Part shown: in pieces, positions 4,684-61,800 of the stretch | Position numbering within the stretch: position 1 is the stretch's first letter | How the letters are laid out: each line of letters begins with the position of its first letter | Source of the DNA: Dokdonia pacifica | GTDB lineage: Bacteria > Bacteroidota > Bacteroidia > Flavobacteriales > Flavobacteriaceae | NCBI RefSeq assembly: GCF_900188275.1 | Contig: NZ_FZNY01000001.1 | Span: forward strand, 1,116,001-1,180,000 | DNA length: 64,000 nt | Reading direction: 5' to 3' | Position numbers and translations under genes: made by a program | Notes under the pieces: model-generated | Seen by the model: the letters and a program-made list of their open reading frames with translations, nothing else | Database searches by the model: none | Told to the model about the DNA's origin: nothing

Positions 4684-4703
4684 TACGCTTTCGCGAAAGC
4701 GTA
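4684..4703. repeat. palindromic repeat (20 bp), intergenic
   Basis: A perfect 20-bp palindrome, TACGCTTTCGCGAAAGCGTA, beginning at the base after the stop codon of the DUF4349 gene. In RNA it would form a 3'-UTR hairpin, but no T-tract follows, so it does not look like a standard intrinsic terminator. It is one of 17 exact cores in this window. Confidence 0.95.
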
Positions 4704-4792
4704 AACAATATAAATACCGATGTTGGGTTTTACATATATACAAGGTATATCCTATACTAAAACCCTAGTCGGATAGAAGATAGTATGAGTCT

Positions 4793-6415
4793 ATGAAAAA
4801 GAAAATTAGTATTTCCGTTATTGCTGTTGTGCTCCTTTTTACAACGGTAAGTTTTAAAAGTGATTTTTTTGAAATTGCTAAACAAATAGAAATTTTTACG
4901 ACCCTTTTTAAGGAGCTAAACATGAATTATGTAGATGAGACCAATCCTGCAGAACTTATGGATGCTGCCATAGAAGGGATGCTTGATGATCTTGATCCAT
5001 ATACAAAGTATTGGACAGAACAAGAAGTGGAAGATGCAAAAATTAATAGAAGTGGGGAATACTCTGGTATTGGGTCTACGGTTCGTACCAAAGATAAAGT
5101 AATGACTATTATTGAGCCTCGTAAAGGCTATCCAGCAGATAAGGCAGGTCTTAAAGCTGGTGATCAAATTATTAAAATAGGTGATATTTCTATAAGTGAT
5201 TTTGAAGGAGATGCTGGTGATTTATTAAAAGGAGCTCCTGGAAGTAACCTAAATGTGACGTATCTAAGACAAGGTAAAACTGCACAAGCTACTATAAAAA
5301 GAGCTGAGGTAGATGTAGATGCTGTTCCGTTTTATAAACTTATTGATGGAAATACTGGATATATTGTTTTGACAAAATTCAATAAAAAGGCATCTGCTCA
5401 AGTAAAAGAGGCACTTATCAATCTTAAAAATGATGGTGCTGAAAAAATCATACTAGATCTTAGAGGAAATGGAGGCGGATTACTCGTAGAGGCTATTCGT
5501 ATTTGTAATTTATTTTTACCTAAAGGAGAAGTGATTACTACAACAAAGTCTGTTGTAAAGAAGTATAATAAGACCTATAAAACCAAAGAAGAGCCTGTAG
5601 ATACAGAAATTCCATTAGCCATATTAATAAATGGTCGTAGTGCTTCGGCTAGTGAGATTGTTACAGGAGGTTTACAGGATTATGATCGTGCTGTAGTAAT
5701 AGGTGCTCGTAGTTTTGGTAAAGGTCTTGTACAGCGTCCTAAACCACTTACATATGGTACACAACTTAAAGTAACTATCTCTCGTTATTTTACACCTAGT
5801 GGTCGTTGTATACAAGCATTAGATTATTGGAATAGGGATGAAAAAGGAAATGCTGTTCGTACAGATGCACAAGATTATAAAGAGTTCAAAACTAGAAATG
5901 GTCGTAAAGTTTTTGATGGTGGTGGTGTTTTTCCAGATATTGAAGTTGCTTCTGCACAAACAAGTCCTATAACTAAAGCATTAAGTAAAGACAATGCCAT
6001 ATTTGAGTATGCAACAACTTATTATTATAAGCATCAGTATGCAAACTTGGATGAATTTAAATTTACAGATGCTGATTATGAAGATTTTAAAAAGTTCTTA
6101 AAAAATACAGACTTCAAATATGAAACAGAGACGGAGTCTGCTTTCGCGAAAGCGTTAGAACAAGCTAAAAAAGATGGTTTAGATAATGAGGTTTCTTCTA
6201 TATACAAGCAATTAGAAAATACCATAGAAAAAGCTAAAAATAAAGAACTAGATGATCGTCAGGAAGAGATCCAAAATTTACTTATCGATGAAATCGTAAA
6301 GCGTTACTTCTATCGTGATGGATTGTATGAATATCAACTCATAAATAATAAAGAAATAGCCGAAGCCGTTAGTATATTAAATGATGCTAAACGCTATGAA
6401 AACACATTAAAATAA
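4793..6415 (+). CDS. C-terminal processing peptidase (S41)
   Basis: A periplasmic serine protease of the CtpA/Prc type (540 aa) that cleaves non-polar C-termini of envelope proteins. An N-terminal signal/anchor is followed by a PDZ domain (KAGLKAGDQIIKIGD). The catalytic dyad is seen as Ser285 in SASASE and Lys310 in SFGKGLVQ, with the usual 25-residue spacing. A helical C-terminal extension follows (about residues 400-540). Residues 450-454 are the AFAKA reading of an in-frame palindromic repeat, within a Lys/Glu-rich helix where it should be tolerated. The start ATG precedes a Lys-rich n-region. An inverted repeat lies in the leader (4725-4765). Confidence 0.95.
   Translation: MKKKISISVIAVVLLFTTVSFKSDFFEIAKQIEIFTTLFKELNMNYVDETNPAELMDAAIEGMLDDLDPYTKYWTEQEVEDAKINRSGEYSGIGSTVRTKDKVMTIIEPRKGYPADKAGLKAGDQIIKIGDISISDFEGDAGDLLKGAPGSNLNVTYLRQGKTAQATIKRAEVDVDAVPFYKLIDGNTGYIVLTKFNKKASAQVKEALINLKNDGAEKIILDLRGNGGGLLVEAIRICNLFLPKGEVITTTKSVVKKYNKTYKTKEEPVDTEIPLAILINGRSASASEIVTGGLQDYDRAVVIGARSFGKGLVQRPKPLTYGTQLKVTISRYFTPSGRCIQALDYWNRDEKGNAVRTDAQDYKEFKTRNGRKVFDGGGVFPDIEVASAQTSPITKALSKDNAIFEYATTYYYKHQYANLDEFKFTDADYEDFKKFLKNTDFKYETETESAFAKALEQAKKDGLDNEVSSIYKQLENTIEKAKNKELDDRQEEIQNLLIDEIVKRYFYRDGLYEYQLINNKEIAEAVSILNDAKRYENTLK
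6140..6153. repeat. palindromic repeat core inside S41 protease gene
   Basis: Exact core GCTTTCGCGAAAGC, read as Ala-Phe-Ala-Lys-Ala at residues 450-454 of the protease. Confidence 0.95.
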
Positions 6416-6419
6416 GCCT

Positions 6420-8117: not shown

Positions 8118-8125
8118 TTATTTTT

Positions 8126-8584
8126 CTAGGAAGTTCTTATCATCCCAATATGTGGGATTCCATCTTCTAAGTACCCCTCTCCTACTTCTTTAAATCCAAG
8201 AGTATTATAAAATGATTTTAAATACGTTTGTGCAGATATTTTAATTGTAGTAGTATCATATGCTTTTTCTACAGCTTCTATAGATTTTTTCATAAGATCA
8301 TATCCATACTTATGCTTTCGTTCTGAAGCGCGCACTACTACCCTACCTATACTAGCATCTTTAAAATATGTTTGAGGCGGAAAAATACGTGTGTAAGCAA
8401 CGAGTTCTTTATCCTTATACCCTAATACGTGTAGTGCTATATCATCTTTACCATCTATATCTTGATAGACACAATCTTGCTCTACTACAAAAACTTCAGA
8501 TCGTAATTGAAGCATCGCATACAACTCATCTCTATGGAGGTTTTTATATGATTTTATATCAAAAACGAGCGGCTTGGTTTGCAT
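8126..8584 (-). CDS. GNAT family N-acetyltransferase, ElaA type
   Basis: A 152-aa acetyl-CoA-dependent acyltransferase. The N-terminus has the ElaA signature (LRSEVFVVEQDCVYQDIDGKD). The acetyl-CoA loop is in the region IGRVVVRASERKHKYGYDLM, followed by AQTYLKSFYNTLGF as in ElaA. The substrate is unknown. It lies 30 bp downstream of rpiB in the same direction, so the two are probably cotranscribed. Confidence 0.88.
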   Translation of the reverse strand: MQTKPLVFDIKSYKNLHRDELYAMLQLRSEVFVVEQDCVYQDIDGKDDIALHVLGYKDKELVAYTRIFPPQTYFKDASIGRVVVRASERKHKYGYDLMKKSIEAVEKAYDTTTIKISAQTYLKSFYNTLGFKEVGEGYLEDGIPHIGMIRTS

Positions 8585-8614
8585 TATAGTATCCGCGAAG
8601 CGGTTTTTTGAAAA

Positions 8615-9046: not shown

Positions 9047-9068
9047 GAGTCTGCTGTATTAGTTTCTA

Positions 9069-9076
9069 CAAATTTA
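9069..9076 (-). promoter_or_regulatory. Bacteroidota -7 box for rpiB
   Basis: The minus strand reads TAAATTTG (TAnnTTTG), 22 bp upstream of the rpiB start codon. Confidence 0.45.
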
Positions 9077-9097: not shown

Positions 9098-9119
9098 ATA
9101 CGCTTTCGCGAAAGCGTAT
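9098..9119. repeat. palindromic repeat (22 bp), intergenic
   Basis: Perfect palindrome extended by one A/T pair on each side of the 20-bp form; core at 9102-9115. It lies between rpiB and the DnaA-box-like cluster. Confidence 0.95.
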
Positions 9120-14097: not shown

Positions 14098-14121
14098 TAT
14101 ACGCTTTCGCGAAAGCGTATA
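14098..14121. repeat. palindromic repeat (24 bp), intergenic
   Basis: The longest perfect copy in the window: the 20-bp palindrome plus two further paired bases on each side. Core at 14103-14116, 94 bp after the rnr stop codon. Confidence 0.95.
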
Positions 14122-16483: not shown

Positions 16484-16505
16484 ATACGCTTTCGCGAAAG
16501 CGTAT
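16484..16505. repeat. palindromic repeat (22 bp), intergenic
   Basis: Perfect palindrome with core at 16488-16501, 81 bp upstream of the aminopeptidase start codon. Confidence 0.95.
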
Positions 16506-20088: not shown

Positions 20089-20108
20089 TACGCTTTCGCG
20101 AAAGCGTA
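20089..20108. repeat. palindromic repeat (20 bp), intergenic
   Basis: Perfect 20-bp palindrome, core 20092-20105, 57 bp upstream of the -7 box of the LysE gene. Confidence 0.95.
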
Positions 20109-22760: not shown

Positions 22761-24791
22761 ATGAGTGATACACATAAATCATTGAATTTTTTAGAACAAA
22801 TTGTAGAAGACGACTTAGCAAATGGGTATACGAAAGACCAATTGCGATTTCGATTTCCACCAGAACCTAATGGGTATTTACACATTGGGCACTGTAAAGC
22901 AATTTGTATCAGTTTTGGACTAGGAGAGAAGTACAATGCTCCTGTAAACTTACGTTTTGATGATACCAATCCAGCTAAAGAAGAGCAAGAATATGTAGAT
23001 GCGATTAAGGAAGATGTAGCTTGGTTAGGATACCAATGGGATAAAGTGTGTTTTTCTAGTGATTATTTCCAGAAATTATATGATTGGGCTGTTCAAATGA
23101 TTAAGGATGGAAAAGCCTATGTAGATAGCCAAACGAGTGAAGAAATGGCTCAACAGAAAGGAACGCCTACACAACCAGGTGTTGCGGGTCCATATCGAGA
23201 TCGCTCTGTAGAAGAGAATTTAGATTTATTTACACGTATGAAAAATGGTGAGTTTAAAGAAGGAACTCATGTATTACGTGCAAAGATTGATATGGAAGAT
23301 CCTAATATGCTGATGCGCGATCCTTTAATGTATCGTATCATGTATAAAGATCATCACCGTACAGGCAGTGATTGGTGTATCTACCCTATGTATGATTGGA
23401 CCCACGGAGAAAGTGATTACATAGAACAAATCTCACATAGTTTATGTTCCTTAGAATTTAAACCTCATAGAAAGCTGTATGATTGGTTTTTGGATCAAGT
23501 ATATACGGGAGAAGATGTACGTACAAAACAACGCGAATTTGCCCGTTTAAACTTAAGCTATACCATCATGAGTAAGCGTAAATTATTACGTCTGGTGGAA
23601 GAAAATATAGTTTCAGGGTGGGACGATCCGCGTATGCCTACCATTTCTGGATTACGTAGACGAGGATATACACCAGCAGCTATTCGTAAATTTATAGATA
23701 CGGTAGGGGTTGCAAAGCGTGAAAATGTGATTGATGTCTCTTTATTAGAATTTAATATTAGAGAAGATCTCAATAAAACAGCCACTCGTGTTATGGGTGT
23801 TCTAGACCCTGTAAAGTTGATCATTACCAATTATCCAGAAGGAAAAGAAGAACTCCTTACTGCCGAAAATAACCCTGAAGATCCTAATGGAGGAGAACAT
23901 CAGGTTCCTTTTAGTGGAGAATTATACATAGAAAGAGAAGATTTTAAGGAAGAAGCAGGCAATAAATTTTTCCGATTAACACTAGGTAAAGAAGTACGTC
24001 TTAAAAATGCATACATCATCAAAGGGGAAAGTGTTGTTAAAGATGCAAACGGGACAATAACAGAAATTCATTGTACCTATGATCCAGAGACAAGATCTGG
24101 AAGTGGTACAGAAGCGTCTAAACGCCCTGTAAAAGGAACCTTACATTGGGTGTCTATTGCACACGCAATTCCTGCAGAAATACGCTTATACGACCGTTTA
24201 TTTAACCACGAAGCACCCGATGGAGATAAGGAGAAAGATTTTATGGAATATATCAATCCAGATTCTCTAAATGTGATTACTGGATACGTTGAGCCCTATC
24301 TTGCAGATGCAAAAGTAGGAGATCGATTCCAATTCCAGCGTATGGGGTATTTTAATGTAGATACAGATAGTACTCCAGAAAAATTAGTGTTTAATCGTAC
24401 GGTAGGATTACGTGATTCTTGGGCAAAACAAAAGCCCAAACCACAACATAAACCTCAACAACAAAAAGCCCAACCTCAGCAAAAAGCTTCGGCCTTAAGT
24501 CAAATCAATAAATTAGGTAAAAAACTAGCGAATCTTCCTGAAGAAAAACGTCTAGCAACGATAGAGACTATTCAGAAACTAGCGTTAGATTTAACCGAAG
24601 AAGAGGTGATAGGGTTCTTTAATACAGCTGCCAAAAAAGTAGGAACTCGTATAGCGGGGATTGAGAGTTTATACGCTTTCGCGAAAGCGCATTCAAAAGA
24701 AATTTCAAGTATTTCAGGAGCTGAAGAATTTGTTCAGAAAGCAAAAGAAGATAGCAATGAGTTATTGAGTGGCGCTGCCAGTAAATTATAA
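22761..24791 (+). CDS. glnS: glutaminyl-tRNA synthetase with C-terminal extension
   Basis: A class I synthetase that charges tRNA-Gln. The HIGH motif is in PPEPNGYLHIGHCKA and the KMSKS-type loop is TIMSKRKL. The anticodon-binding beta-barrels end near residue 560 (FNRTVGLRDSWAKQ). At 676 aa it is about 120 longer than the usual 550-560. A Gln/Pro/Lys-rich linker (residues about 556-575) leads to a helical domain of about 100 residues. Residues 639-643 of this tail (YAFAKAHSK) are an in-frame palindromic repeat. The tail may bind tRNA, by analogy with appended domains in other GlnRS; I did not recognise a YqeY domain. Confidence 0.95.
   Translation: MSDTHKSLNFLEQIVEDDLANGYTKDQLRFRFPPEPNGYLHIGHCKAICISFGLGEKYNAPVNLRFDDTNPAKEEQEYVDAIKEDVAWLGYQWDKVCFSSDYFQKLYDWAVQMIKDGKAYVDSQTSEEMAQQKGTPTQPGVAGPYRDRSVEENLDLFTRMKNGEFKEGTHVLRAKIDMEDPNMLMRDPLMYRIMYKDHHRTGSDWCIYPMYDWTHGESDYIEQISHSLCSLEFKPHRKLYDWFLDQVYTGEDVRTKQREFARLNLSYTIMSKRKLLRLVEENIVSGWDDPRMPTISGLRRRGYTPAAIRKFIDTVGVAKRENVIDVSLLEFNIREDLNKTATRVMGVLDPVKLIITNYPEGKEELLTAENNPEDPNGGEHQVPFSGELYIEREDFKEEAGNKFFRLTLGKEVRLKNAYIIKGESVVKDANGTITEIHCTYDPETRSGSGTEASKRPVKGTLHWVSIAHAIPAEIRLYDRLFNHEAPDGDKEKDFMEYINPDSLNVITGYVEPYLADAKVGDRFQFQRMGYFNVDTDSTPEKLVFNRTVGLRDSWAKQKPKPQHKPQQQKAQPQQKASALSQINKLGKKLANLPEEKRLATIETIQKLALDLTEEEVIGFFNTAAKKVGTRIAGIESLYAFAKAHSKEISSISGAEEFVQKAKEDSNELLSGAASKL
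24675..24688. repeat. palindromic repeat core inside glnS
   Basis: Exact core read as AFAKA at residues 639-643, within the lineage-specific C-terminal extension of GlnRS. Confidence 0.95.
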
Positions 24792-27270: not shown

Positions 27271-27290
27271 TACGCTTTCGCGAAAGCGTA
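27271..27290. repeat. palindromic repeat (20 bp), intergenic
   Basis: Perfect 20-bp palindrome, core 27274-27287, starting 3 bp after the stop codon of the SGNH gene. Confidence 0.95.
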
Positions 27291-29560: not shown

Positions 29561-31075
29561 TTATAAAGTCTCTATGGCTTTTTGAATACGAGCAATCGTT
29601 TCTTCTTTGCCTATAGTAGCTGCAATAGCAAATACATCAGGTCCTTGCATCGCACCTACAAGGCTAAGTCGTAGCGGCTGCATTACTTTTCCAAAACCTA
29701 ACTCATTACTAGTAATCCACCCTTTTACAGCATCCTGAAGTGTCGTCGAGTCAAAAGTAGTTACTCCTTCTATAACCGTAATGACTTGTTTCATAATAGC
29801 GCCTGTATCTTCTTTCCATCCTTTTTTAGCCGCTTTTTCATCATAAGAAGTAGGTGCTTCAAAGAAATAACTTCCTAAGTTCCATAAATCAGATACGAAA
29901 ATAGCACGTTCTTTTATAAGCCCAGTCACTGTTGTTACGTATGCTAGAGAGGTATCAACCCCTTTTTGTGTAAGAAGCTCCATAAATTGAGCAGATACCA
30001 CATCATTAGAAGTTTGTTGTAAATAATGTTGTTGGAACCACTTTGTTTTTTCTGGATCAAATTTAGCTCCAGCTTTATTTACACGTGTAAGATCAAAAGC
30101 TGCTACTAATTCTTCTAAAGAAAAAATCTCTTGCTCTGTTCCTGGATTCCACCCTAAGAAAGCAAGCATATTCACTACAGCTTCTGGAAAATATCCATCT
30201 TCTCTGTATCCTGAAGAAACTTCATTCTTTTTAGGATCTTCCCATTGTAATGGAAATACCGGAAACCCTAATTTATCTCCATCTCGTTTGCTTAGTTTTC
30301 CTTTTCCTACTGGCTTCAATATTAATGGTAGGTGTGCAAACTTAGGAGCATCCCAACCAAAAGCACGATATAATAATACATGCAAAGCAAGCGATGGTAA
30401 CCATTCTTCACCACGAATTACATGTGTGATTTCCATCAAATGGTCATCTACAATATTAGCAAGATGGTAGGTAGGCATACCATCAGATTTATAAAGCACT
30501 TTATCATCTAGGATATTAGTGTCTATTTGGATATCGCCACGTATTTCATCTTGCAAATGCAAAATTTCGTCTTGTGGTGCTTTAAAACGAATCACATAGG
30601 CATCTCCAGCATCAATACGTTGTTGTACCTCTTCTTCAGAATGCACTAAAGAGTTGTCTAATTTTAATCTGTTATGCCAGTTATAGATAAATGTTTTGCC
30701 TTTAGCTTCGTGGTCTTTACGATGTGCATCTAGAGCTTCAGCGGTATCAAATGCATAATAAGCATTTCCTGAATCTAATAACGCTTTCGCGAAAGCGGAA
30801 TACATCTCTTTACGTTCACTTTGTCTATAAGGTCCGAAATCGCCTTCACGACCGGGTCCTTCATCATAAGGAATTCCACACCAATCTAAACTCTCTTTAA
30901 TGTAGTCTTCGGCGCCAGGTACATACCTGTTTTGATCTGTATCTTCTATACGCAATACGAAGGTTCCTTTGTGTTTTTTTGCAAAGAGGTAATTAAAAAG
31001 GGCTGTACGTACACCACCTATATGTAATGGTCCTGTTGGGCTAGGTGCAAAGCGTACTCTTACTTGTTGAGACAT
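29561..31075 (-). CDS. gltX: glutamyl-tRNA synthetase
   Basis: A class I synthetase that charges tRNA-Glu (504 aa, normal length). HIGH motif: APSPTGPLHIGGVRTALFNYL. KMSKS-type loop: GKLSKRDGDK. The C-terminal helical anticodon-binding domain is present. Residues 94-98 (SAFAKALLDSG) are an in-frame palindromic repeat within a helix that exists in the family, so it replaces rather than adds residues. A -7 box lies at 31096-31103. Confidence 0.97.
   Translation of the reverse strand: MSQQVRVRFAPSPTGPLHIGGVRTALFNYLFAKKHKGTFVLRIEDTDQNRYVPGAEDYIKESLDWCGIPYDEGPGREGDFGPYRQSERKEMYSAFAKALLDSGNAYYAFDTAEALDAHRKDHEAKGKTFIYNWHNRLKLDNSLVHSEEEVQQRIDAGDAYVIRFKAPQDEILHLQDEIRGDIQIDTNILDDKVLYKSDGMPTYHLANIVDDHLMEITHVIRGEEWLPSLALHVLLYRAFGWDAPKFAHLPLILKPVGKGKLSKRDGDKLGFPVFPLQWEDPKKNEVSSGYREDGYFPEAVVNMLAFLGWNPGTEQEIFSLEELVAAFDLTRVNKAGAKFDPEKTKWFQQHYLQQTSNDVVSAQFMELLTQKGVDTSLAYVTTVTGLIKERAIFVSDLWNLGSYFFEAPTSYDEKAAKKGWKEDTGAIMKQVITVIEGVTTFDSTTLQDAVKGWITSNELGFGKVMQPLRLSLVGAMQGPDVFAIAATIGKEETIARIQKAIETL
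30783..30796. repeat. palindromic repeat core inside gltX
   Basis: Exact core; read on the minus strand as AFAKA at residues 94-98. Confidence 0.95.
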
Positions 31076-34457: not shown

Positions 34458-37400
34458 ATACATTTAAAAACATAGAACAAAAGCTAGAACGCTTTATTCG
34501 TAAATATTACACAAACGAACTGCTTAAAGGAATAATTCTCTTTTTTGCCTTTGGGGTATTGTATTTTTTACTCACCCTCTTAATAGAATATTTTTTCTGG
34601 TTAAGCCCTGCAGGAAGAACCGTGTTATTCTGGCTTTTTATAGGAGTAGAAATTGCTTTACTTGCAAAATTTATTATCATCCCATTGGCGAGACTCTTTA
34701 AATTATCTAAAGGGATAGATTATAAAGACGCAGCTCAAATCATTGGGGATTACTTTCCTGAAGTAAGTGATAAGCTTATCAACACCCTTCAATTACATAG
34801 TGAATCTCAGGACTCAGAACTTATGCTTGCTAGTGTTGAGCAAAAAAGCGAAGAACTAGAACCCATTCCTTTTCGCCTAGCGATTAACTTTAAGAAAAAT
34901 GTCAAATACTTAAAATACGCAGCGATCCCAGTTGTTGTGTTTTTGATTGCTAATTTTATAGGGAAAGACGAGGTTTTTTCATCTAGTTATGAGCGTGTTG
35001 TAAATTACAGTGAAGCCTATGAACCACCAGCACCATTTAGTTTTTTTGTTGTAAATGAAAAGTTAGAGGTAGTAGAAAACAGGAATTATAAACTACAGGT
35101 TAGAACCGTTGGTGATGTAGTGCCAGATGAGGCATCCATACACTTCAATAATGAGATTTATTTTTTACAACAAGTAGCACCAGGAGAATATAGTTTTACG
35201 TTTGAACAACCTACGAGTGATATTTCTTTTTATCTCCAGGCAAATAAGGTGACTTCACAAGCATACAACTTAGAGGTTTTAAAGGTGCCTGTGCTCGTTA
35301 ATTTCGAAATGCAACTAGAGTATCCGCGATACACCAAAAAGACCTCAGAACTCATTAAAAACACCGGAAATGCCATTGTTCCAGAAGGAACTAAAGTAAC
35401 TTGGATGCTTGATACACGTGAAACAGAACAAGTAGAGTTAGTTTTGAAGGATACGTTATACGCTTTCGCGAAAGCAAAAGAAAATACCACTACAACGTCT
35501 TATCGTTTAGCACAACGTATTTATAAAAATACGGCCTACGAAGTCAGCACTAGTAATACGGCATTAAAGAATTTTGAAAATCTTGCGTATAATCTACAAA
35601 CGATCAAAGATGAATATCCTCAAATGAACCTTGAGGTGAAAACAGATAGTATAAGTAATCAGCAAAACTATTTTTATGGAAAAGTAAGCGATGATTATGG
35701 GCTTACGAAGTTACGTCTAGTATATTATCCTTCTCAATCTGAAGATAAAAAATATAAAGATATTGCTGTATCAAAAGGAAATGTAGATCAATTTATTTAT
35801 GCATTTCCAGATACGCTTCAACTTCAAGAAGGTGTGAATTATGAATACTATTTTGAAGTTTTTGATAATGACGCCATTCATAATTTTAAAAGTACCAAGA
35901 GTAGTGTTTTTAGTTTTGTAAAATTTACAGAAAGTGAATTAGAGCAACAGCAATTAGAACAACAAAATAAAGCGATATCGGGTCTTGATAAATCGTTAGA
36001 AAAATTAAAAGAACGTGAGAAAGAACTAGAAGAAATTTCTCGTAATCAAAAAGAAAAGAAGGAACTTAATTTTAATGATCAAAAGAAACTTCAAAACTTT
36101 TTAAAACGCCAAAAACAACAAGAGGAGTTAATGAAAGATTTCTCTAAGCAACTCAAAGAAAATCTTGAAGAGTTTCAAAAAGATGAGCAGCTTACCGATG
36201 AGGAAAAGGAAAAACTTAAAGAACGATTAGAGCGTCAAGAAAAGAAGGCAAAAGAAAATGAGAAGCTTCTTGAAGAGCTTGAAAAGCTACGTGAAAAAAT
36301 AAGTAAAGAAGAACTCTCTGAGAAACTTGAAAAATTACAAAAACAAAATAAAAACAATAAACGTAATCTAGAACAAATGGTAGAGCTTACAAAGCGTTAT
36401 TATGTTCAGAAAAAAGCAGAAAAGATTGCGCGCGATCTAGAAAAACTTGCAAAAAAACAAGAAGAGCTTAGTAAGAAAGATGGGGAAGAAAATTCTAAAG
36501 AGGAACAAGATAAATTAAACGAAGAGTTCAAAAAACTAGAAGAAGATCTTAAAGATTTAGAAAAAGAAAATGAAGGACTAAAAAAACCTATGGATATTCC
36601 TTCAGACCCTAAGAAGCAAGAAGAAATTAAAGAGGATCAAGAAGGTGCTTCTGACGATTTAGAAAAACAAGAACAACAAGAGCAAGAAGGGAAACCGTCT
36701 AGTAAATCTGAAGCACAGAAAAAACAAAAAAAGGCAGCTCAAAAAATGAAGCAAATGAGTCAGTCTATGCAATCTCAAATGCAGCAATCTGGTGAAGAAG
36801 GAATGGAAGAAGATGCAGAGATGCTACGACAGATTTTAGATAACCTTTTAGTCTTTTCTTTTGAGGAAGAAGATGTGATGAAAGACTTCAAGGCGATGGA
36901 TGATAAGAATCCAAATTTTGCTAGTAAATTGAGACTTCAAAATGTGTTGAAACAAAACTTTCAACATATAGATGATAGTTTGTACGCATTAGCATTGCGT
37001 AGACCAGAACTTGATGAAACTATCAATGAATCTTTGACAGAAATTGATTTTAATATCAATAAAGCATTAGAGCGATTGGCAGACAATCAAATTATTCAAG
37101 GAGTAAGTAGTCAGCAGTATGTGGTGACTGGTGCAAATGAATTAGCAGATTTTTTAAGTAGTTCATTAGACCAAATGAATAATCAGATGAGTGGTCAAGG
37201 ACAAGGGCAAGGTCAGGGTCAAGGTCAGGGACAGGGCCAAGGCCAAGGACAGCAATTACCCGATATAATTCAAAGCCAAGAAGAGCTTAATAAAAAGATG
37301 GAAGAAGGCAGCAAGCCAGGCGAAGGGAAAAAAGGTAATGAAGGAGAAGATGGTGAAGGCGAAAATGGAGAAAACGGAGAAGGGGAAGAAGGCGAAGGAG

Positions 37401-38341: not shown

Positions 38342-38357
38342 TGTTCCACGTGAAACA
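38342..38357. promoter_or_regulatory. parS-like ParB binding site 1
   Basis: TGTTCCACGTGAAACA, a 16-bp site identical to a natural variant of the bacterial parS consensus TGTTNCACGTGAAACA. It lies just after ybeY. Confidence 0.85.
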
Positions 38358-38404: not shown

Positions 38405-38456
38405 CAAGCTAATTTTTTGCTGACAATACACCCTTTTTGTTTTGTTGCAAATCTAA

Positions 38457-38472
38457 TGTTCCACGTGAAACA
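38457..38472. promoter_or_regulatory. parS-like ParB binding site 2
   Basis: The same 16-bp sequence, ending at the base before the mnmG ATG, so ParB spreading or binding here could affect mnmG expression. Confidence 0.85.
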
Positions 38473-40355: not shown

Positions 40356-40371
40356 TGTTCCACGTGAAACA
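40356..40371. promoter_or_regulatory. parS-like ParB binding site 3
   Basis: The same 16-bp sequence, 5 bp after the mnmG stop codon and 19 bp before the next gene. Confidence 0.85.
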
Positions 40372-40390: not shown

Positions 40391-41221
40391 ATGAAAACGA
40401 CTATTGAAGTAAAAGATCATTCCGTTTCTGGAGAATTATTTCGCCTAGAGTATGATGCAAAGCTTCATATGTATACCACATCACCAAAACCTTCAAAAGA
40501 GAGTTTACCTTCCTATTATGCTAGTGAAGATTATATTTCTCATACAGATGGGAAACGATCATTGTTTGAAAAAATGTATCAGGTGGTAAAAGGAATTACG
40601 CTTTCGCGAAAGCAAAAACTACTCCATTCTTATTTACCTCAAAAAGGATCTCTTTTAGATATCGGAGCAGGCACTGGTGATTTTTTAGAATATGCAGCCG
40701 CAAAAGGATGGACAGCTTCTGGAGTAGAGCCAAGCGAAAAAGCAAGATCATTAGCAAAACAAAAAAATGTTACTCTTATTGAAGAATTGCCAGAAACTTC
40801 AAGTGGATACGATGCTATTACAATGTGGCATGTACTAGAACATGTATATGATTTAAAAACACAAATTCGTTGGATTAAAAACAACTTGAGTAGGGAAGGA
40901 GTGCTTTTTGTAGCTGTTCCCAATTTTGAATCTTATGATGCATCTTATTATAAAACTGATTGGGCTGCTTATGATGTGCCTAGACATTTATATCATTTTT
41001 CAAAAAAATCAATTGAGCTGTTATTTGAAGAACAAAACATGTCTGTAAGAGCAATACACCCTATGAAATTTGATGCCTATTATGTGAGCTTGCTTTCAGA
41101 GAAATATAAAACAGGAAAAATGAAATTTTTAAATGCTTTTTGGAATGGATGGCGTTCGAATCAAAAAGCGAGAAAAACAAGAGCTTATTCATCACTTATT
41201 TATGTGATAAAGCATCAATAG
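40391..41221 (+). CDS. class I SAM-dependent methyltransferase
   Basis: A 276-aa protein. The SAM-binding glycine motif LLDIGAGTGDFLEYAA lies near residue 88, followed by the acidic GVEPSEKA and the post-motif TMWHVLEHVYDL typical of Methyltransf_23-type enzymes. The substrate is unknown. It follows mnmG after 40 bp and ends in a strong terminator, so it may be cotranscribed with mnmG. Residues 69-75 (ITLSRKQ) come from a palindromic repeat read in a different frame from all other coding copies. Confidence 0.88.
   Translation: MKTTIEVKDHSVSGELFRLEYDAKLHMYTTSPKPSKESLPSYYASEDYISHTDGKRSLFEKMYQVVKGITLSRKQKLLHSYLPQKGSLLDIGAGTGDFLEYAAAKGWTASGVEPSEKARSLAKQKNVTLIEELPETSSGYDAITMWHVLEHVYDLKTQIRWIKNNLSREGVLFVAVPNFESYDASYYKTDWAAYDVPRHLYHFSKKSIELLFEEQNMSVRAIHPMKFDAYYVSLLSEKYKTGKMKFLNAFWNGWRSNQKARKTRAYSSLIYVIKHQ
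40600..40613. repeat. palindromic repeat core inside methyltransferase gene (alternate frame)
   Basis: Exact core, but read as T-L-S-R-K-Q rather than AFAKA; the only coding copy of ten in that frame. Confidence 0.95.
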
Positions 41222-44589: not shown

Positions 44590-45777
44590 ATGAAGACAGT
44601 AGACCACTTCAATTTTGAAAATAAAAAAGCATTAATACGCGTAGATTTTAATGTACCATTAGATGACCAACTTCAAGTAACCGATACTACAAGGATTGAA
44701 GCTGCAAAACCTACCATTTTAAAAATTCTAGAAGATGGGGGAGCTGCAATTTTAATGTCACACCTTGGAAGACCGAAAGCACAAGAAGATGAATTTTCTA
44801 TGAAGCACATTTGCAGTAAGGTTTCTGAAATTATTGGTGTAGAAGTTATATATGTATCTAATTGTATAGGTGAAGAGGCTATTCAAGCTGCCCAAAACCT
44901 AGAGATGGGTCAGATTTTATTACTTGAGAATCTTAGATATCACGATGAAGAGAAAAAAGGGGATATTGCTTTCGCGAAAGCGTTATCAGAACTAGGAGAT
45001 ATTTATGTAAATGATGCCTTCGGTACAGCACATAGAGCACACGCATCTACAACAATTATTGCTCAGTTTTTTCCAGAAAACAAATGCTTTGGAAATTTAC
45101 TTTCTAAAGAAATAGAAAGTTTAGATCGTGTATTAAATAATAGTGAAAAACCAGTTTTAGCAATTTTAGGAGGAGCTAAAGTATCATCAAAAATTACAGT
45201 GATTGAAAACATCCTTGATAAAGTAGATGCTATGATCATAGGTGGCGGGATGGCTTATACATTTATTAAAGCTCAAGGAGGATCTATAGGAAATTCTATT
45301 TGTGAAGATGATAAAATGCCACTTGCTTTAGACATATTAAAAAAAGCCGAAGAGAAAAATGTGACGATTCATTTACCTATAGATGTATTAGCTGCAGATG
45401 ATTTTTCTGAGGCTGCAAACACAAAAGTGATCGCTATTAATGAGATTCCTGACGGATGGCAAGGCTTAGATGCAGGGCCAGGTTCTGTTCAAGTATTTGA
45501 TGCTGTTGTTCAGAAATCTAAAACTATTTTATGGAATGGTCCTTTAGGTGTTTTTGAAATGGCCCCTTTTGCAGGAGCTACTATTGCACTTGGAAATAGT
45601 ATTGCAGAAGCTACTAAAAATGGTGCCTTTTCTCTCGTTGGAGGTGGTGATAGTGTTGCAGCAGTAAAGCAATTTGGCTTTGATAACAAAGTAAGTTATG
45701 TGTCTACTGGAGGTGGTGCTATGTTAGAAATGTTAGAAGGAAAAACATTGCCTGGTATTGCTGCTATTTTAGAATAA
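44590..45777 (+). CDS. pgk: phosphoglycerate kinase
   Basis: A glycolytic and gluconeogenic enzyme that interconverts 1,3-bisphosphoglycerate + ADP and 3-phosphoglycerate + ATP; 395 aa, normal length. Motifs: the N-terminal RVDFNVPL, the substrate site HLGRPK, NDAFGTAHRAHAST and the nucleotide-site GGGDSVAAVKQFG. Residues 127-131 (IAFAKALSELGD) are the palindromic repeat, fitting the family's ordinary FAK-x-L pattern at this position with no added length. It is divergent from holB and ends in a strong terminator. Confidence 0.98.
   Translation: MKTVDHFNFENKKALIRVDFNVPLDDQLQVTDTTRIEAAKPTILKILEDGGAAILMSHLGRPKAQEDEFSMKHICSKVSEIIGVEVIYVSNCIGEEAIQAAQNLEMGQILLLENLRYHDEEKKGDIAFAKALSELGDIYVNDAFGTAHRAHASTTIIAQFFPENKCFGNLLSKEIESLDRVLNNSEKPVLAILGGAKVSSKITVIENILDKVDAMIIGGGMAYTFIKAQGGSIGNSICEDDKMPLALDILKKAEEKNVTIHLPIDVLAADDFSEAANTKVIAINEIPDGWQGLDAGPGSVQVFDAVVQKSKTILWNGPLGVFEMAPFAGATIALGNSIAEATKNGAFSLVGGGDSVAAVKQFGFDNKVSYVSTGGGAMLEMLEGKTLPGIAAILE
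44968..44981. repeat. palindromic repeat core inside pgk
   Basis: Exact core read as AFAKA at residues 127-131, just before the conserved NDAFGTAHR segment. Confidence 0.95.
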
Positions 45778-47889: not shown

Positions 47890-49485
47890 ATGAGATTACT
47901 TCATATATATACCCTTGTTGGATGTTTGTTGGTTTCCGCTTTCGCGAAAGCGCAAGACACCTTATCCTATGAGACGTTTAAGAAAAATAATAAAGAACGT
48001 GTGGGTCTAGAAAGAGATACCATTACGATTATAGATTCTATTACGACCACTTCTTTTGTAAACGAAATAGATAAAGTAGAACTTAAAACTCTTTCAAGAG
48101 ACTCTGTAGTCTTTAAACTGGAAGATGAGCCGCTTGCAGCACGCCTTGATTCCTTGTGGCGTCATGAGTTAGCTCGCATGGATTTGTATGATTCCATCAC
48201 TAATATGGTTCAAGGATTAGAATACAAAGAAGAGGTGTACTTAGATTTACCTACAGATACCCTAAAAAAACGGCTTGCACTTATAAATGAAAGAACTCCT
48301 TTTAATGTTGGATATACAGCTTCTTTAGAAAGCGTAATAAAAGGCTATTTAAAGCGCCATAAACCAAGTATGGAGCGCCTTATGGAGATCAGTCAGTTTT
48401 ACTTCCCGATGTTTGAAGAGACCTTAGATAAATATGATATTCCATTAGAGATGAAATATCTTGCTATTGTAGAGTCGGCATTACGACCACGTGCAAAATC
48501 TAGGGTAGGAGCAACAGGCTTATGGCAATTTATGTTTAGTACAGGAAAGATATATGGTCTTGATGTAAATTCTTATGTAGATGAGCGTATGGATCCTATA
48601 ATGGCTACCGAAGCTGCGTGTCAATATCTTTCAAAACTCTATGAACTTTTTGGAGATTGGGATCTTGCTTTGGCGTCTTATAATTCTGGACCAGGTAATG
48701 TGTCAAAAGCGATTAGACGTAGTGGAGGGTATCAAAATTATTGGAATATCCGTAATAATCTTCCACGTGAAACCGCAGGATATGTACCAGCTTTTCTAGC
48801 AACGATGTATCTTTTTGAATATGCAGATGAGCATGGATACCAACCCAAGAAAGCTCCAGTAAATTACTTTGAAACAGATACAGTACACGTAAAACAGTTA
48901 ATCACCTTAGAGCAAGTTGCTAAAATTACAGGTGAGCCACTAGAGGTGATACAGTTTTTAAACCCTTCTTATAAACTTGATATTATTCCCGTTGTAAAAG
49001 ATGAGAAGTATTACTTGAGACTTCCAGTGGAAAAAATAGGACCTTTTGTACAGAATGAGGAGGAGATATACGCTTTCGCGAAAGCGGAAATAGATAAAAG
49101 AGAAAAACCATTACCAAAATTTACAACCTCCAGTAGCCAGGTGCGATATCGCGTGCGAAGTGGTGATTATTTAGGGAAAATAGCCAATAGATATGGAGTG
49201 CGAGTAAGTCAAATAAAAAAATGGAATAACCTTAAATCTAATAATTTAAGAGTGGGACAACGCTTAACAATATATCCTCGTAAGCCTGTTACTTCTTCCA
49301 GTTCTTCGAGTAGTGCAAAAACAGTAGTAAATAATGGGAAAAAGGTATATACTGTAAAGCAGGGAGACTCTTTATGGAAGATTGCAAATAAATTTCCAGG
49401 GGTTAGTGTAAGTAATATTAAAGTTTGGAACGATATTAGCGGTACTAATTTAAAACCGGGAATGAAACTTATTGTTTCAAAATAA
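47890..49485 (+). CDS. mltD: MltD-like lytic transglycosylase with two LysM domains
   Basis: A periplasmic or outer-membrane peptidoglycan-cleaving enzyme (531 aa). The signal peptide ends at residues 16-22, S-AFAKA-Q; the A-x-A/Q site is built from a palindromic repeat. The SLT domain has the catalytic Glu in YLAIVESALRPRAKS, then GATGLWQFM and the Gly-rich ALASYNSGPGNV. Two LysM domains follow (RYRVRSGDYLGKIANRYG; VYTVKQGDSLWKIANKF). A second palindrome encodes residues 395-399 (YAFAKAEIDK) in the linker before LysM1. It is followed after 23 bp by a DUF4837 lipoprotein gene. Confidence 0.95.
   Translation: MRLLHIYTLVGCLLVSAFAKAQDTLSYETFKKNNKERVGLERDTITIIDSITTTSFVNEIDKVELKTLSRDSVVFKLEDEPLAARLDSLWRHELARMDLYDSITNMVQGLEYKEEVYLDLPTDTLKKRLALINERTPFNVGYTASLESVIKGYLKRHKPSMERLMEISQFYFPMFEETLDKYDIPLEMKYLAIVESALRPRAKSRVGATGLWQFMFSTGKIYGLDVNSYVDERMDPIMATEAACQYLSKLYELFGDWDLALASYNSGPGNVSKAIRRSGGYQNYWNIRNNLPRETAGYVPAFLATMYLFEYADEHGYQPKKAPVNYFETDTVHVKQLITLEQVAKITGEPLEVIQFLNPSYKLDIIPVVKDEKYYLRLPVEKIGPFVQNEEEIYAFAKAEIDKREKPLPKFTTSSSQVRYRVRSGDYLGKIANRYGVRVSQIKKWNNLKSNNLRVGQRLTIYPRKPVTSSSSSSSAKTVVNNGKKVYTVKQGDSLWKIANKFPGVSVSNIKVWNDISGTNLKPGMKLIVSK
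47938..47951. repeat. palindromic repeat core at the mltD signal-peptide cleavage site
   Basis: Exact core read as AFAKA at residues 17-21, immediately before Gln22, the likely first mature residue. Confidence 0.95.
49072..49085. repeat. palindromic repeat core, second copy in mltD
   Basis: Exact core read as AFAKA at residues 395-399, in the linker between the SLT and first LysM domains. Confidence 0.95.
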
Positions 49486-51881: not shown

Positions 51882-53369
51882 ATGTCTCTTAAATCGTTTG
51901 CAGCAAAAATATTCGCAAAGCGTATACAACGCAAAATAGATGCTTGGGCTTCCAATCCTATAGTAACGCAAGAAAAAGTCTTTAAGTCGCTTATAGATGC
52001 AGCACAATATACAGCATTTGGAAATGATCACCACTTTGATAAAATTCATTCTCATGAAGACTTTGTACGTGAAGTACCTATAAGAGATTATGAAGCACTT
52101 CGTCCATATATAGATCGTGTCGTTGCAGGAGAATCAGATGTTGTATGGCCAGGAAAACCCTTGTACTTTGCAAAAACATCGGGTACTACATCTGGCGCAA
52201 AATACATCCCACTTACCAAAGATAGTATGCGTACACATCCAGATACAGCACGCAACGCAATTTTATGCTATATCGCTGAAACTGGAAAAGCAAGCTTTGT
52301 AGATGGGAAAATGATTTTTTTACAAGGAAGTCCTGAAGTAGAAGAAAAAAATGGCGTTAAAGTAGGAAGACTTTCAGGTATTGTAGCCCATTATGTTCCT
52401 AATTACCTTCAAAAAAACAGACTTCCGAGTTGGGAGACTAATTGTATTGATGACTGGGAAACAAAAGTAGATGCTATTGTTGATGAAACAATAGATAAAG
52501 ACATGACAATTATAAGCGGTATTCCTTCATGGGTACAGATGTACTTTGAGAAGCTTATAGAGAAGTCAAATAAGCCTGTAGGGACACTTTTTAAAAACTT
52601 TAACCTCTTTATATACGGAGGTGTAAATTATGAGCCTTACCGCGCAAAATTTGAAAATCTTATAGGGCGTCGTGTAGATAGTATAGAATTGTATCCTGCT
52701 AGTGAAGGTTTTTTTGCATTTCAAGATAAGCAAGAAGAAAAAGGGATGCTTTTACAATTAGATAATGGAATTTTTTACGAGTTTATAAAAGCAGATTCCT
52801 TTTTTGAAGAAAACCCTCAAAGAATCACTCTTAAAGATGTTGAGGTGGGCGTAAATTATGTGATGATTATTTCTACTAGTGCAGGCTTATGGGGATATAA
52901 TATTGGTGATACCGTTATATTCACTTGTGTAAAACCATATCGAGTTCTTGTTTCGGGAAGAATTAAGCATTTTATTTCGGCATTTGGAGAGCATGTTATT
53001 GGAAAAGAAGTAGAGCAAGCATTGCAAGAAGCTATTAATGGAACTGCTATTCGCATCAATGAATTTACGGTAGCTCCACAAATAACACCAGAAGAGGGAT
53101 TGCCGTATCATGAATGGTTTATAGAGTTTGAAAATGAAGATGGAGATGTGTCCGCTTTCGCGAAAGCAATAGACGCCTCCTTACAATCTCAAAACTCATA
53201 TTACTATGATCTTATTGTTGGAAAAGTGTTACAACCGTTGAAAATATCCAAAGTAAAAGAAGGGGGATTTAATGAGTATATGAAATCTATAGGCAAACTA
53301 GGAGGGCAAAATAAAATCCCAAGACTTTCTAATGATCGTAAAATCGCAGACAGATTACCGATTATTTAA
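51882..53369 (+). CDS. GH3 auxin-responsive promoter family protein (acyl-adenylate-type ligase)
   Basis: A 495-aa protein of the GH3 family within the ANL adenylating superfamily. Plant members join amino acids to hormones; bacterial roles are unknown. The ATP-binding loop is FAKTSGTTSGAKYIPLTKDS, with ELYPASEGFFAFQ and the C-terminal GRIKHFISAFGEHV motif. It lies 1 bp after the M23 gene, so they are probably cotranscribed. Residues 425-429 (SAFAKAIDAS) are an in-frame palindromic repeat in a C-terminal helix. The substrate is not predictable. Confidence 0.9.
   Translation: MSLKSFAAKIFAKRIQRKIDAWASNPIVTQEKVFKSLIDAAQYTAFGNDHHFDKIHSHEDFVREVPIRDYEALRPYIDRVVAGESDVVWPGKPLYFAKTSGTTSGAKYIPLTKDSMRTHPDTARNAILCYIAETGKASFVDGKMIFLQGSPEVEEKNGVKVGRLSGIVAHYVPNYLQKNRLPSWETNCIDDWETKVDAIVDETIDKDMTIISGIPSWVQMYFEKLIEKSNKPVGTLFKNFNLFIYGGVNYEPYRAKFENLIGRRVDSIELYPASEGFFAFQDKQEEKGMLLQLDNGIFYEFIKADSFFEENPQRITLKDVEVGVNYVMIISTSAGLWGYNIGDTVIFTCVKPYRVLVSGRIKHFISAFGEHVIGKEVEQALQEAINGTAIRINEFTVAPQITPEEGLPYHEWFIEFENEDGDVSAFAKAIDASLQSQNSYYYDLIVGKVLQPLKISKVKEGGFNEYMKSIGKLGGQNKIPRLSNDRKIADRLPII
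53154..53167. repeat. palindromic repeat core inside GH3 gene
   Basis: Exact core read as AFAKA at residues 425-429. Confidence 0.95.
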
Positions 53370-58007: not shown

Positions 58008-58010
58008 TTT

Positions 58011-59057
58011 ATGAAGAAAGATGCAAAAATATATATTGCGGGACATCGAGGATTAGTTGGAAGTGCCATAAAACAAGATTTAGAAAAAAAAGGGTATACA
58101 AACCTTATCTATAAAACACATAAAGAGTTAGACTTAATAAACACACAAGAAGTTGCAACTTTTTTTGAAACAGAGCAACCTGAATATGTGTTTTTAGCTG
58201 CCGCAAAAGTAGGTGGAATTATAGCAAATAATACCTATAGAGCAGACTTCATTCATGCTAACTTGATGATTCAAAACAATGTGATTCATCAAAGCTATAA
58301 GAGCGGTGTCAAGAAGTTACTTTTCTTAGGAAGTACGTGTATTTATCCTAAGGAGGCACCACAGCCTATGAAAGAAAATAGCTTACTTACAGGCCCTTTA
58401 GAATATACCAATGAGCCCTATGCAATTGCAAAAATTGCAGGGATTAAGATGTGTGAGAGCTATAATTTACAATATGGCACTAATTTTCTTTCAGTGATGC
58501 CCACAAATTTATATGGGTATAATGATAATTTTGATTTAGAAAAGTCACATGTGTTACCTGCTTTAATTCGTAAGATGCACTTAGCAAAACTACTTTCGGA
58601 AGGCAAAAAAGAGGAAGTGGTCAAGGATCTTAATGTTTCCGCTTTCGCGAAAGCGCAAGAAACCCTAAAACAATATGGAGTCTCAGATACATCTGTTGAG
58701 ATTTGGGGAACAGGAGCACCACGCAGGGAATTTTTGTGGAGCCAAGACATGGCAAATGCTTGTGTGTTTATCATGGAAAACACCAATTTTAGTGATGTAA
58801 AACCTAGCCACGGAGATGTGAAAAACACGCATATCAATATTGGTACAGGAGAAGATATCTCTATCAAAGAACTAGCTGAAACTATCCAAAAGATTGTTGG
58901 ATTTCAAGGAAACCTCACCTTTAATACTTCAAAGCCAGATGGGACGTTACGTAAACTTACAGATGTTTCTAAATTACACGCTTTAGGGTGGAAGCACAAA
59001 ATCCAGTTAGAAGAAGGTATAGAAAAACTCTATGCATGGTATCTAGAAAAGCAATAA
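58011..59057 (+). CDS. fcl: GDP-L-fucose synthase
   Basis: An epimerase/reductase (348 aa) making GDP-L-fucose from the product of Gmd. NADP loop [10 protein letters not shown]; catalytic elements [15 protein letters not shown] and YAIAKIAG. It is somewhat longer than the usual 310-320 aa because of an insert near residues 195-225 ([12 protein letters not shown] ... LKQYGVSD) that contains the AFAKA palindrome at 211-215. It abuts gmd and the flippase gene (0-3 bp gaps), indicating one operon. Confidence 0.97.
58641..58654. repeat. palindromic repeat core inside fcl
   Basis: Exact core read as AFAKA at residues 211-215, inside a family-variable insert. Confidence 0.95.
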
Positions 59058-60380: not shown

Positions 60381-61786
60381 GTGAAGAATTAAAAGCAAAA
60401 GACCTAGCTACTATTGAATTTTCAATAGATAAAGTATGTACACTATATTTTTATGAAGATAGAGTATTAAGAGGTATTCACAGTGATTATACGACTCAAG
60501 TTCGAGAGATGTTTGATAGCGGAATGATGCAAGAGCTTGTTGAAAAACAGCTTTTTGTAAAAACATGGATTTCTGATACAAAGATTGAAGGATATGAATT
60601 AGTGATAGAGCATGAGCGTATACCCTATTGGAATTATCCATATGAGTGGTCTTTTACGATGCTTCACAGAGCAGCAAACCTTGTATTAGACGCAAATGAA
60701 GTTGTAAATAAATATGGGTATGAGCTTTTTGATGTACATGCATTTAATGTAGTGTACGATATGGCAAGACCTAAATATGTAGATTTTGGAAGTATCTTAA
60801 AAAGAGATCCTAAAAACGGTAAAAGTTGGTCTGGATATCTTAATTTCTATAATTCATTTTATATGCCTTTGTATTTGTATAACAAAGGATTTTCAGATCT
60901 TTCTAATAGTATCTTTTTATATAATGGGTTTTTTAGTGATCAGGATCTTTTTCAATTACGACATAAGTATGCTAGTTTCTTTGGAGGAAAAATAGGAAAC
61001 CTTTTATTCAAAATACACAATAATTCAAGAAGACTTTCGGTAGCGAGATATAGTCGTGTGATAGATAAATATGGTCGTCATAAACACATTGATAAATTAC
61101 TTAAGTTTAAAAAATTCAATCAAAATAAGTATACGACAAAAAAGGCTAGAAAAGCGATTAAGAGCGTAAATAAGAGCCGAATAGATTCTTACTGGAAAGA
61201 CTATCACAACGATAAAAACCCTTCTAAGGATGCGCGTTTTTTACGTATTACAGAACTTATTAAAACAAAACTTGCTGACGCATCTTCTCTAATTGAACTA
61301 GCTTCTAACCAAGGAAAGTTTGCAAACTATGTCTTAGAAAGTACCCAAATAGAAAAAATCATTGCTACAGATTATGATAAAAATGCACTAGATCGCATCT
61401 TTATCAATAATGAAAATAGGGAAGATGTACTCCCGCTGGTATACGATTTTGTAAGACCTAATAATAGAAGTAATACGCTCAAAATTGATCAGAGAATCAA
61501 TGCAGATATTGTAATGGCGCTCGCGGTGACACATCACTTAATCTTAACACAAGATGTGAGTTTAGAGCACATTTTTAAAGTACTTGCATCACTTACAAAT
61601 AAGTATATAGTGGTTGAGTTTATGCCATTAGGGCTTTACTTTGGTGATATGGATAACATTCCTCCATTTCCAGAGTATTATACATTAGAGTGGTTTAGAG
61701 ATGCATTTTCAGAGAAGTTTGAACATATATTGGATGAAGAAGTAGCGATCAATAGACATGTATTTATTGGTAAGCTAAAAGAGTAA
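60377..61786 (+). CDS. fusion: kinase-like N-terminal domain plus SAM methyltransferase domain
   Basis: A 469-aa protein starting at the ATG that overlaps the flippase stop (ATGA); a GTG at 60362 is less likely. The N-terminal half has a motif pair reminiscent of kinase-fold sugar kinases: DVHAFNVVYD (H-x-x-N) then PKYVDFGSI (DFG). The C-terminal half is a class I methyltransferase region (SSLIELASNQGKFANYVL, IATDYDKNAL, DIVMALAVTHHLIL). In a polysaccharide operon this suggests phosphorylation and methylation of a glycan, or terminal capping that controls chain length. Similar NoeA-type proteins exist; activity is unproven. Confidence 0.72.
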   Translation: MSEELKAKDLATIEFSIDKVCTLYFYEDRVLRGIHSDYTTQVREMFDSGMMQELVEKQLFVKTWISDTKIEGYELVIEHERIPYWNYPYEWSFTMLHRAANLVLDANEVVNKYGYELFDVHAFNVVYDMARPKYVDFGSILKRDPKNGKSWSGYLNFYNSFYMPLYLYNKGFSDLSNSIFLYNGFFSDQDLFQLRHKYASFFGGKIGNLLFKIHNNSRRLSVARYSRVIDKYGRHKHIDKLLKFKKFNQNKYTTKKARKAIKSVNKSRIDSYWKDYHNDKNPSKDARFLRITELIKTKLADASSLIELASNQGKFANYVLESTQIEKIIATDYDKNALDRIFINNENREDVLPLVYDFVRPNNRSNTLKIDQRINADIVMALAVTHHLILTQDVSLEHIFKVLASLTNKYIVVEFMPLGLYFGDMDNIPPFPEYYTLEWFRDAFSEKFEHILDEEVAINRHVFIGKLKE

Positions 61787-61800
61787 GCTTTCGCGAAAGC
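61787..61800. repeat. palindromic repeat core, intergenic
   Basis: Exact core beginning at the base after the stop codon of the kinase/methyltransferase gene. The 5' extension is lost (TAA-GC instead of TAC-GC) because it is occupied by the stop codon. Confidence 0.95.

Follow-up and report, generated by a model that had tools for sequence, protein, structure and literature searches.

An iterated, evenly spaced 14-bp palindrome in Dokdonia pacifica as a candidate self-DNA uptake signal

A 14-bp palindrome in the window and in the genome

The window analysed here, a 64-kb stretch of Dokdonia pacifica (contig NZ_FZNY01000001.1, positions 1,116,001 to 1,180,000), carries 17 copies of GCTTTCGCGAAAGC, a perfect 14-letter palindrome, ten of them inside open reading frames (ORFs, called mechanically at 80 aa or more) and seven in intergenic DNA. 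All 17 coordinates given in the original prediction proved exact, and its statement that chance would yield far fewer than one copy is borne out by a shuffle expectation of 0.02 (up to one mismatch), with none of 100 shuffles reaching 17. Copies with one mismatch were absent from the window. Nine of the ten coding copies are read as GCT TTC GCG AAA GC (peptide AFAKA) and one in another frame, and six of the seven intergenic copies have the 20-mer TACGCTTTCGCGAAAGCGTA, an extension that had been claimed for most of them. The copies are listed below; for the coding ones we give the aligned orthologues (rows) with a copy at the same codon, the alignments being made with the homologous regions of 15 other genomes of the genus (G008 and G011 left out).

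4687..4700, intergenic, within the 20-mer TACGCTTTCGCGAAAGCGTA
6140..6153, in ORF 4793-6415 (S41 peptidase with PDZ domain), frame GCT TTC GCG AAA GC (AFAKA)
9102..9115, intergenic, perfect palindrome of 22 bp
14103..14116, intergenic, perfect palindrome of 24 bp
16488..16501, intergenic, perfect palindrome of 22 bp
20092..20105, intergenic, perfect palindrome of 20 bp
24675..24688, in ORF 22761-24791 (glutamyl/glutaminyl-tRNA synthetase family); codon shared by 5 of 6 rows (window row included)
27274..27287, intergenic, perfect palindrome of 20 bp
30783..30796, in ORF 29561-31075 on the minus strand (gltX, glutamyl-tRNA synthetase family); codon shared by 10 of 14 rows
35462..35475, in ORF 34454-37933; codon shared by 5 of 16 rows
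40600..40613, in ORF 40391-41221 (methyltransferase fold), phase 2; codon shared by 13 of 16 rows, two more one base off
44968..44981, in ORF 44590-45777 (phosphoglycerate kinase); codon shared by 7 of 16 rows
47938..47951, in ORF 47890-49485 (lytic transglycosylase with LysM); codon shared by 5 of 14 rows
49072..49085, second copy in ORF 47890-49485; codon shared by 12 of 14 rows, the other two one base off
53154..53167, in ORF 51882-53369 (GH3 family); codon shared by 6 of 6 rows
58641..58654, in ORF 58011-59057 (NAD-dependent epimerase); codon shared by 5 of 6 rows, with a shift of one base in the sixth
61787..61800, intergenic, immediately 3' of the stop codon of ORF 60362-61786

The whole genome (5,520,745 bases) contains 903 exact copies, with 0 for a reversed-pattern control, and 1058 copies when up to one mismatch is allowed (control, 1). 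The mean density is one copy per 6.1 kb genome-wide versus one per 3.8 kb in the window, so that the window is denser than the genome average. The genomic count is not near the value expected from base composition, and the palindrome is iterated in all 18 Dokdonia genomes (369 to 905 exact copies each, the genome of the window included); neither of the outcomes that the original prediction had named against itself was observed.

Range, sequence and spacing of the copies

Beyond the genus, the range of the motif is patchy. In a survey of 249 genomes from 202 genera of the family, at least one copy was present in 56, and more than 400 in five: two Dokdonia, two of genus g10 (578 and 664 copies) and one of genus g162 (408). 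The remaining counts were 16 and 19 in two g68 genomes, 9 in one genome and 1-6 in the other 48. Within one mismatch we counted 738 copies in G223 (g10), 536 in G178 (g162), 26 and 28 in the g68 genomes and a single one each in G024 (g8) and G025 (g9). Outside the family, 392 genomes drawn from the phylum gave at most one copy per genome. Among the 80 named-genome matches listed for the 16-mer (the palindrome with its usual outer C and G), 30 were from Dokdonia, 33 from Nonlabens, 4 from 'Flavobacteria bacterium BBFL7' and 13 from other bacteria; genus g10 is probably Nonlabens. Seventeen other genera, motif-free or intermediate, were sampled with 18 stretches of 20 kb (two of them from g68) and showed no comparable iterated motif, the commonest 12-mers of those samples occurring 2-8 times and those above four looking like local repeats.

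The sequence and gene context of the motif were studied in G001, a Dokdonia genome sampled as 40 stretches of 20 kb (800 kb) spaced around its single contig. This sample contained 233 exact copies (one per 3.4 kb), 14 with one mismatch and 41 with two. The motif is a perfect palindrome of 14 bp, which the usual outer C/G extends to 16: 88% of the copies have C at position -1. The flanks carry information to a distance of about 20 bp on either side, with many T and G and very few C on the 5' side and the mirror image of this on the 3' side; the scores of the two half-flanks are weakly correlated (r 0.25). ORFs hold 114 of the 233 copies, in frames 55, 27 and 32, at 0.16 per kb versus 1.36 per kb outside, an intergenic excess of 8.5-fold; the enrichment is 4.4- and 8.5-fold in the two Dokdonia genomes sampled. 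The 105 intergenic copies that could be classed, out of 119, fell into convergent (16), tandem (73) and divergent (16) regions, the divergent class, at about half the density of the others, being the sole thinner one, and the distance to the next start codon ranged from 14 to 1118. In g162 the motif is looser (46 exact and 18 one-mismatch copies in 400 kb) and the intergenic excess weaker (2.5-fold).

The copies are more evenly spaced than chance would have them in Dokdonia, g10 and g162. In the window the coefficient of variation (CV) of the spacings is 0.36 versus 0.95 for random placement. Only 10 of 193 spacings in G001 are below 1 kb, the simulated mean being 51.8 and the minimum 33, and each of the 40 stretches holds 3-8 copies, with a Fano factor of 0.25 for the counts per 20 kb. 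The first 81 exact sites listed for G178 (g162) gave a CV of 0.69 versus 0.99 in simulations, and the first 48 listed for G223 (g10) one of 0.40 versus 0.98, with no spacing below 1 kb in either set versus 10.0 and 9.4 simulated, respectively; with 16 sites only, the evenness in G178 was not significant (P 0.10). The comparison with origin and terminus proposed in the original prediction disclosed no trend in G001, the single chromosome sampled all round. Nor did the number of sites rise significantly with genome size among 13 near-complete genomes of the genus (r 0.34, P 0.25).

Origin of the copies and their occurrence in foreign DNA

As the rows listed above illustrate, coding copies are conserved in position, standing at the same codon in orthologues with 57-94% protein identity. 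Orthologues without a copy differ by substitutions, often with the peptide unchanged (for example GCTTTTGCAAAAGC, same peptide), and gaps within 30 bases were lacking in 7 of 10 aligned coding site columns and present to some extent in 3. Since the differences are substitutions and mostly free of gaps, we conclude that point mutation has created and removed the coding copies. The internal copy of gltX is present in 10 of 14 rows; the remaining four have instead an intergenic one 71-72 bp outside the gene, about 0.4 kb away, a pattern that suggests local replacement of a lost copy, the rows being counted regardless of relatedness. Among g162 genes with a copy and a Dokdonia orthologue, two of eight have it at the same codon, one of them at 40% identity, which means that part of the set of copies may predate the split; the sole testable g10 gene did not have its copy at the same codon as the Dokdonia orthologue. 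The comEC gene carries a copy at the same offset in two Dokdonia species, G001 and the genome of the window, G000 (L206, L437), and, judging by position, the comEC of G178 (g162) probably does so too.

In the few examples available, the motif is sparse in foreign DNA. Twenty further stretches of the genome of the window (400 kb) contained 68 exact copies, and two stretches contained none: L425, which encodes a TraG-type conjugation ATPase and a mercuric-reductase-like protein, and L436, which encodes a halogenase, a glycosyltransferase and a radical-SAM protein. The conjugative-element region L424-L426 has 1, 0 and 2 copies in its three 20-kb stretches, where about 10 would be expected at the genome mean. 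This region (G000:C21, about 380-485 kb) corresponds to a metal-resistance conjugative element with RND efflux, P-type ATPases, the mercuric-reductase-like protein and TraG. In 13 of 20 stretches around low-copy sites in other genera (L006-L025), some genes were more than 70%, and up to 98%, identical to Dokdonia genes, mostly matching L424-L426, and on account of this identity the low copies in other genera are probably passengers of a shared element. We had considered that these clusters were ancestral parS-like sites near the origin, and rejected this because their genes match the Dokdonia conjugative element. Some copies of the element carry the palindrome, and a 933-bp pair of palindromes recurs inside an outer-membrane efflux gene.

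Some temperate-looking phages approach host density. The virus record IMGVR 3300040781_000495 (37 kb) has seven copies in the 31 kb examined, two of them in the terminase and portal genes, and its annotation, which includes a MuB-like DNA transposition protein, reads as that of a Mu-like phage. A tyrosine integrase was found in 6 of 20 records examined out of 30 virus records with the 16-mer. The Nonlabens phages P12024S and P12024L, which we take to be lytic and which, in agreement with this, have no annotated integrase, contain no copy in 71 kb even at two mismatches. Searches of named phages with the extended motif returned only two 17-base matches in mycobacteriophages, attributable to chance, and plasmids none. 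On these few elements, the low counts in the conjugative-element region, the absence from the two Nonlabens phages and the near-host density in some temperate-looking phages lie in the direction expected of a DNA uptake sequence.

Possible roles of the palindrome

Of the four roles offered in the original prediction, that of a DNA uptake signal is the best supported, on the iteration of the motif, its spacing, its origin by substitution and its sparseness in foreign DNA. We give about even credence to the proposal that the palindrome is a sequence-specific signal of self DNA, most likely an uptake sequence that biases in uptake and recombination maintain. Its most likely function is to identify DNA as belonging to the cell itself, perhaps when the DNA of relatives is taken up. 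According to this proposal, a predicted surface receptor would bind the perfect palindrome of about 14-16 bp together with its T/G-rich 5' and A/C-rich 3' flanks, and fragments bearing the motif would be preferentially taken up and recombined at the homologous locus. Chance point mutations creating or restoring the motif would spread, and those breaking it would be overwritten. A second copy nearby would add little to a fragment already carrying one, which would lead to even spacing. Copies would slowly accumulate in DNA that resides in the chromosome, including temperate prophages, and would not do so in freshly arrived elements or lytic phages. We infer that the reader of the motif would be an uptake receptor instead of a protein acting inside the cell, and that it would bind as a symmetric dimer.

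By analogy, the motif closely matches the DNA uptake sequences (DUS) of Neisseriaceae and the uptake signal sequences (USS) of Pasteurellaceae. Like them, it occurs in near-exact copies numbering hundreds to thousands, evenly spaced and with base preferences that continue into the flanks; further features shared are an intergenic excess with many copies in ORFs, sparseness in a conjugative element and presence in temperate-looking phages. It differs from them in that the Dokdonia core is a perfect palindrome of 14 bp (16 with the usual outer C/G) and in that the hosts are Bacteroidota. To our knowledge, Pasteurellaceae and Neisseriaceae are the only families with well-described uptake sequences, and we know of none in Bacteroidota. 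The uptake-sequence work consulted treats these two families (PMC1939737, PMC7811141). Uptake sequences are described as significantly evenly spaced and commoner in non-coding DNA than expected, with 65% inside ORFs in H. influenzae and 35% in N. gonorrhoeae (PMC1939737). For the USS, most prophages are reported to be rich and large, likely lytic phages poor, with one USS-poor prophage cluster as the exception (PMC6776037), and in Neisseria conjugative elements have been located by their atypical DUS content (PMC7371117). A literature search found no published mention of the 14-mer GCTTTCGCGAAAGC, and the matches listed for palindromes, uptake and transformation included no report of such a motif in Dokdonia or Nonlabens. 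By this comparison the motif appears most like an uptake sequence, albeit palindromic and in Bacteroidota, and seems new in the literature searched.

Flavobacteriaceae do have natural transformation, as Riemerella exemplifies: in R. anatipestifer it is reported to need ComEC, DprA, ComF, RecA and four proteins of unknown function, among them, in one operon, an essential DUF5689 surface protein and a predicted outer-membrane protein (PMC8459023), and R. columbina is reported to prefer its own DNA (PMC7965970). This machinery, a DUF5689 surface protein plus an outer-membrane protein without known transformation homologues, is a further difference from the DUS and USS systems. We hold more tentatively, at somewhat less than even credence, the fuller proposal that this is the first self-DNA uptake signal in Bacteroidota, palindromic and orientation-free, present in Dokdonia, Nonlabens and one further genus, read not by a type IV pilin but by a pair of surface protein and outer-membrane barrel of the Flavobacteriaceae type, inherited from a common ancestor with molecular drive as the means of its spread, and marking resident phages as well. 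If true, these marine Bacteroidota with a symmetric motif would provide an independent third case in which to ask whether drive alone can account for the evolution of such motifs, and the motif could serve as bait for the DNA receptor of a transformation machinery without known surface components, as a tag assigning phages and mobile elements to their hosts, and as a means to improve genetic tools for Dokdonia and Nonlabens.

Several observations weigh against the uptake proposal. An intracellular protein would explain most of the same facts, and the iteration, scarcity of near matches, spacing, substitution, genome-size and conjugative-element results fit any chromosome-wide binding site under selection. 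Known uptake sequences are described as non-palindromic (PMC1939737), and the one-mismatch variants lean to outer positions, as reported for the cyanobacterial highly iterated palindrome HIP1. The literature search gave no report of natural transformation in Dokdonia, its match concerning another organism, and host competence is thus unsupported. ComEC was found in 32 of 32 genomes tested, motif-free ones included, and likewise in each of the 18 Dokdonia genomes (G010 having a fragment of it where a contig ends), in the two g10 genomes and in the g162 genome; DUF5689 was found in 31 of 32, including all 13 motif-rich ones examined. Because both occur equally in motif-free genera, they do not explain the pattern of the motif, and a comparison of ComEC, DUF5689 and the barrel yielded no receptor candidate separating motif-rich from motif-free genera. 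In the DUF5689 and barrel trees the motif-rich genera do not form one clade, with three changes in each, a topology that decides neither way. As to foreign DNA, the conjugative-element region still holds copies, the lytic-phage comparison rests on two phages similar to each other, 14 of the 20 motif-bearing virus records have no integrase match, many being fragments and host assignments lacking, and in at least one record (L107) the copy is flanked by genes of bacterial appearance.

A second class of DUF5689 proteins, with the domain repeated, was also considered as a tracker of the motif and rejected: these proteins occur in 10 of 10 Dokdonia, in g162 and in both g68 genomes, but they are absent from the two g10 genomes and present in at least 3 of the 17 motif-free ones. 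They lie at G000:C21:542798-544156 and G001:C1:1092725-1093810 (776 aa in G001).

The main rival, to which we give about half the credence of the uptake proposal, is a chromosome-wide site for a putative intracellular protein acting in nucleoid organisation, segregation or nucleoid occlusion, its even spacing arising by direct selection. A dimeric DNA-binding protein would account well for the perfect dyad symmetry, an architectural role for the even spacing and the apparent local replacement at gltX, and the sparseness in foreign DNA is compatible with it. Against this rival, there was no gradient from origin to terminus in the 40 stretches of G001, no Noc-like ParB paralogue tracks the motif, and some phages carry the motif at near-host density, also inside structural genes, which architecture does not obviously predict. 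Were the role architectural, the palindrome would be an unusually dense and regular chromosome-organising signal. The prediction that a chromosome-organising protein binds the site stands as a general possibility and fails for the Noc-type ParB paralogue, the candidate tested. A single chromosomal ParB of about 300 aa was found in each of 15 motif-rich or intermediate genomes examined, as in motif-free ones, and the only extra ParB_N proteins were one of 616 aa in 2 of 10 genomes of the genus and others in three motif-free genomes. The 616-aa protein (G000:C21:474723-475001) lies in the conjugative-element region and is found in one other Dokdonia.

The consensus of parS and of Noc sites is a palindrome of 14-16 bp of the form TTTC...GAAA. 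The Dokdonia motif shares this form, length and dispersal, but it has two bases, not four, between TTTC and GAAA, some 900 copies and, in G001, no trend from origin to terminus. A ParB/Noc site, suggested by this layout, was rejected as first choice because the paralogue does not track the motif and the geometry is different; it is unlikely, as is a terminator or operator. The window also contains three near-canonical parS sites (TGTTCCACGTGAAACA type; 38342-38357, 38457-38472 and 40356-40371) around ORF 38437-40350, which is presumably mnmG-like, and the chromosomal parB match is on G000:C14, a contig separate from that of the window.

A HIP1-like palindrome made and kept by a repair bias that depends on a methyltransferase, the origin suggested for HIP1 of cyanobacteria (GCGATCGC), seems to us a good deal less probable than an intracellular binding site. 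Both motifs are highly iterated perfect palindromes, in and between genes and of unsettled function, and genus-wide iteration and origin by substitution would agree with this explanation. Moreover, among 54 one-mismatch variants pooled from related genomes with slight overlap, 31 fall in the outermost two positions (17 and 14), and such an outer-position bias is reported for HIP1 variants (PMC4390886). On the other hand, 21 of the 54 fall at positions 5-7, and 14 bp (16 with the outer C/G) plus informative flanks far exceed the 8 bp of HIP1. The Dokdonia motif also differs from GCGATCGC in sequence and in host phylum, which speaks against identity with HIP1, and no methyltransferase link came to light, no search aimed at one having been made. 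The ratio of observed to expected TCGCGA outside the motif is 0.42 and 0.53 for two Dokdonia, 1.04 for g162 and 0.64 for controls, so that no special avoidance was found in Dokdonia and g162 relative to motif-free genera. Finally, repair bias does not predict the strongly even spacing. The HIP1-like role of the original prediction, while possible, is less likely than an uptake signal.

A recombination or nuclease-protection site resembling Chi, palindromic and hence bidirectional, is very unlikely: the G001 density of one per 3.4 kb is comparable to that of Chi and some phages carry the motif, but known Chi sites are short and polar, unlike a 14-bp palindrome with 20-bp flanks, and the two Nonlabens phages lack it. 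Even less probable is a transcription element, either an intrinsic terminator or a promoter or operator. The intergenic enrichment in the two sampled Dokdonia would favour it, and an RNA hairpin could form, but nearly half of the G001 copies (114 of 233) lie within ORFs and the intergenic ones occur in convergent, tandem and divergent contexts at widely differing distances from start codons (14 to 1118). The miniature mobile palindrome (of the Rickettsia palindromic element, repetitive extragenic palindrome or miniature inverted-repeat transposable element type) of the original prediction, whose many dispersed copies and intergenic excess are matched here, has next to no probability and is refuted for the coding copies, which arise by mostly gap-free substitution at orthologous positions, without an element body, the copies sharing only a graded flank preference.

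Two further short palindromes were scarce in the G001 sample (L186-L225): TCATGA was near-absent, with 2 occurrences found versus 266 expected, and TTCGAA was strongly depleted (27 versus 266), which suggests active restriction systems in that Dokdonia.

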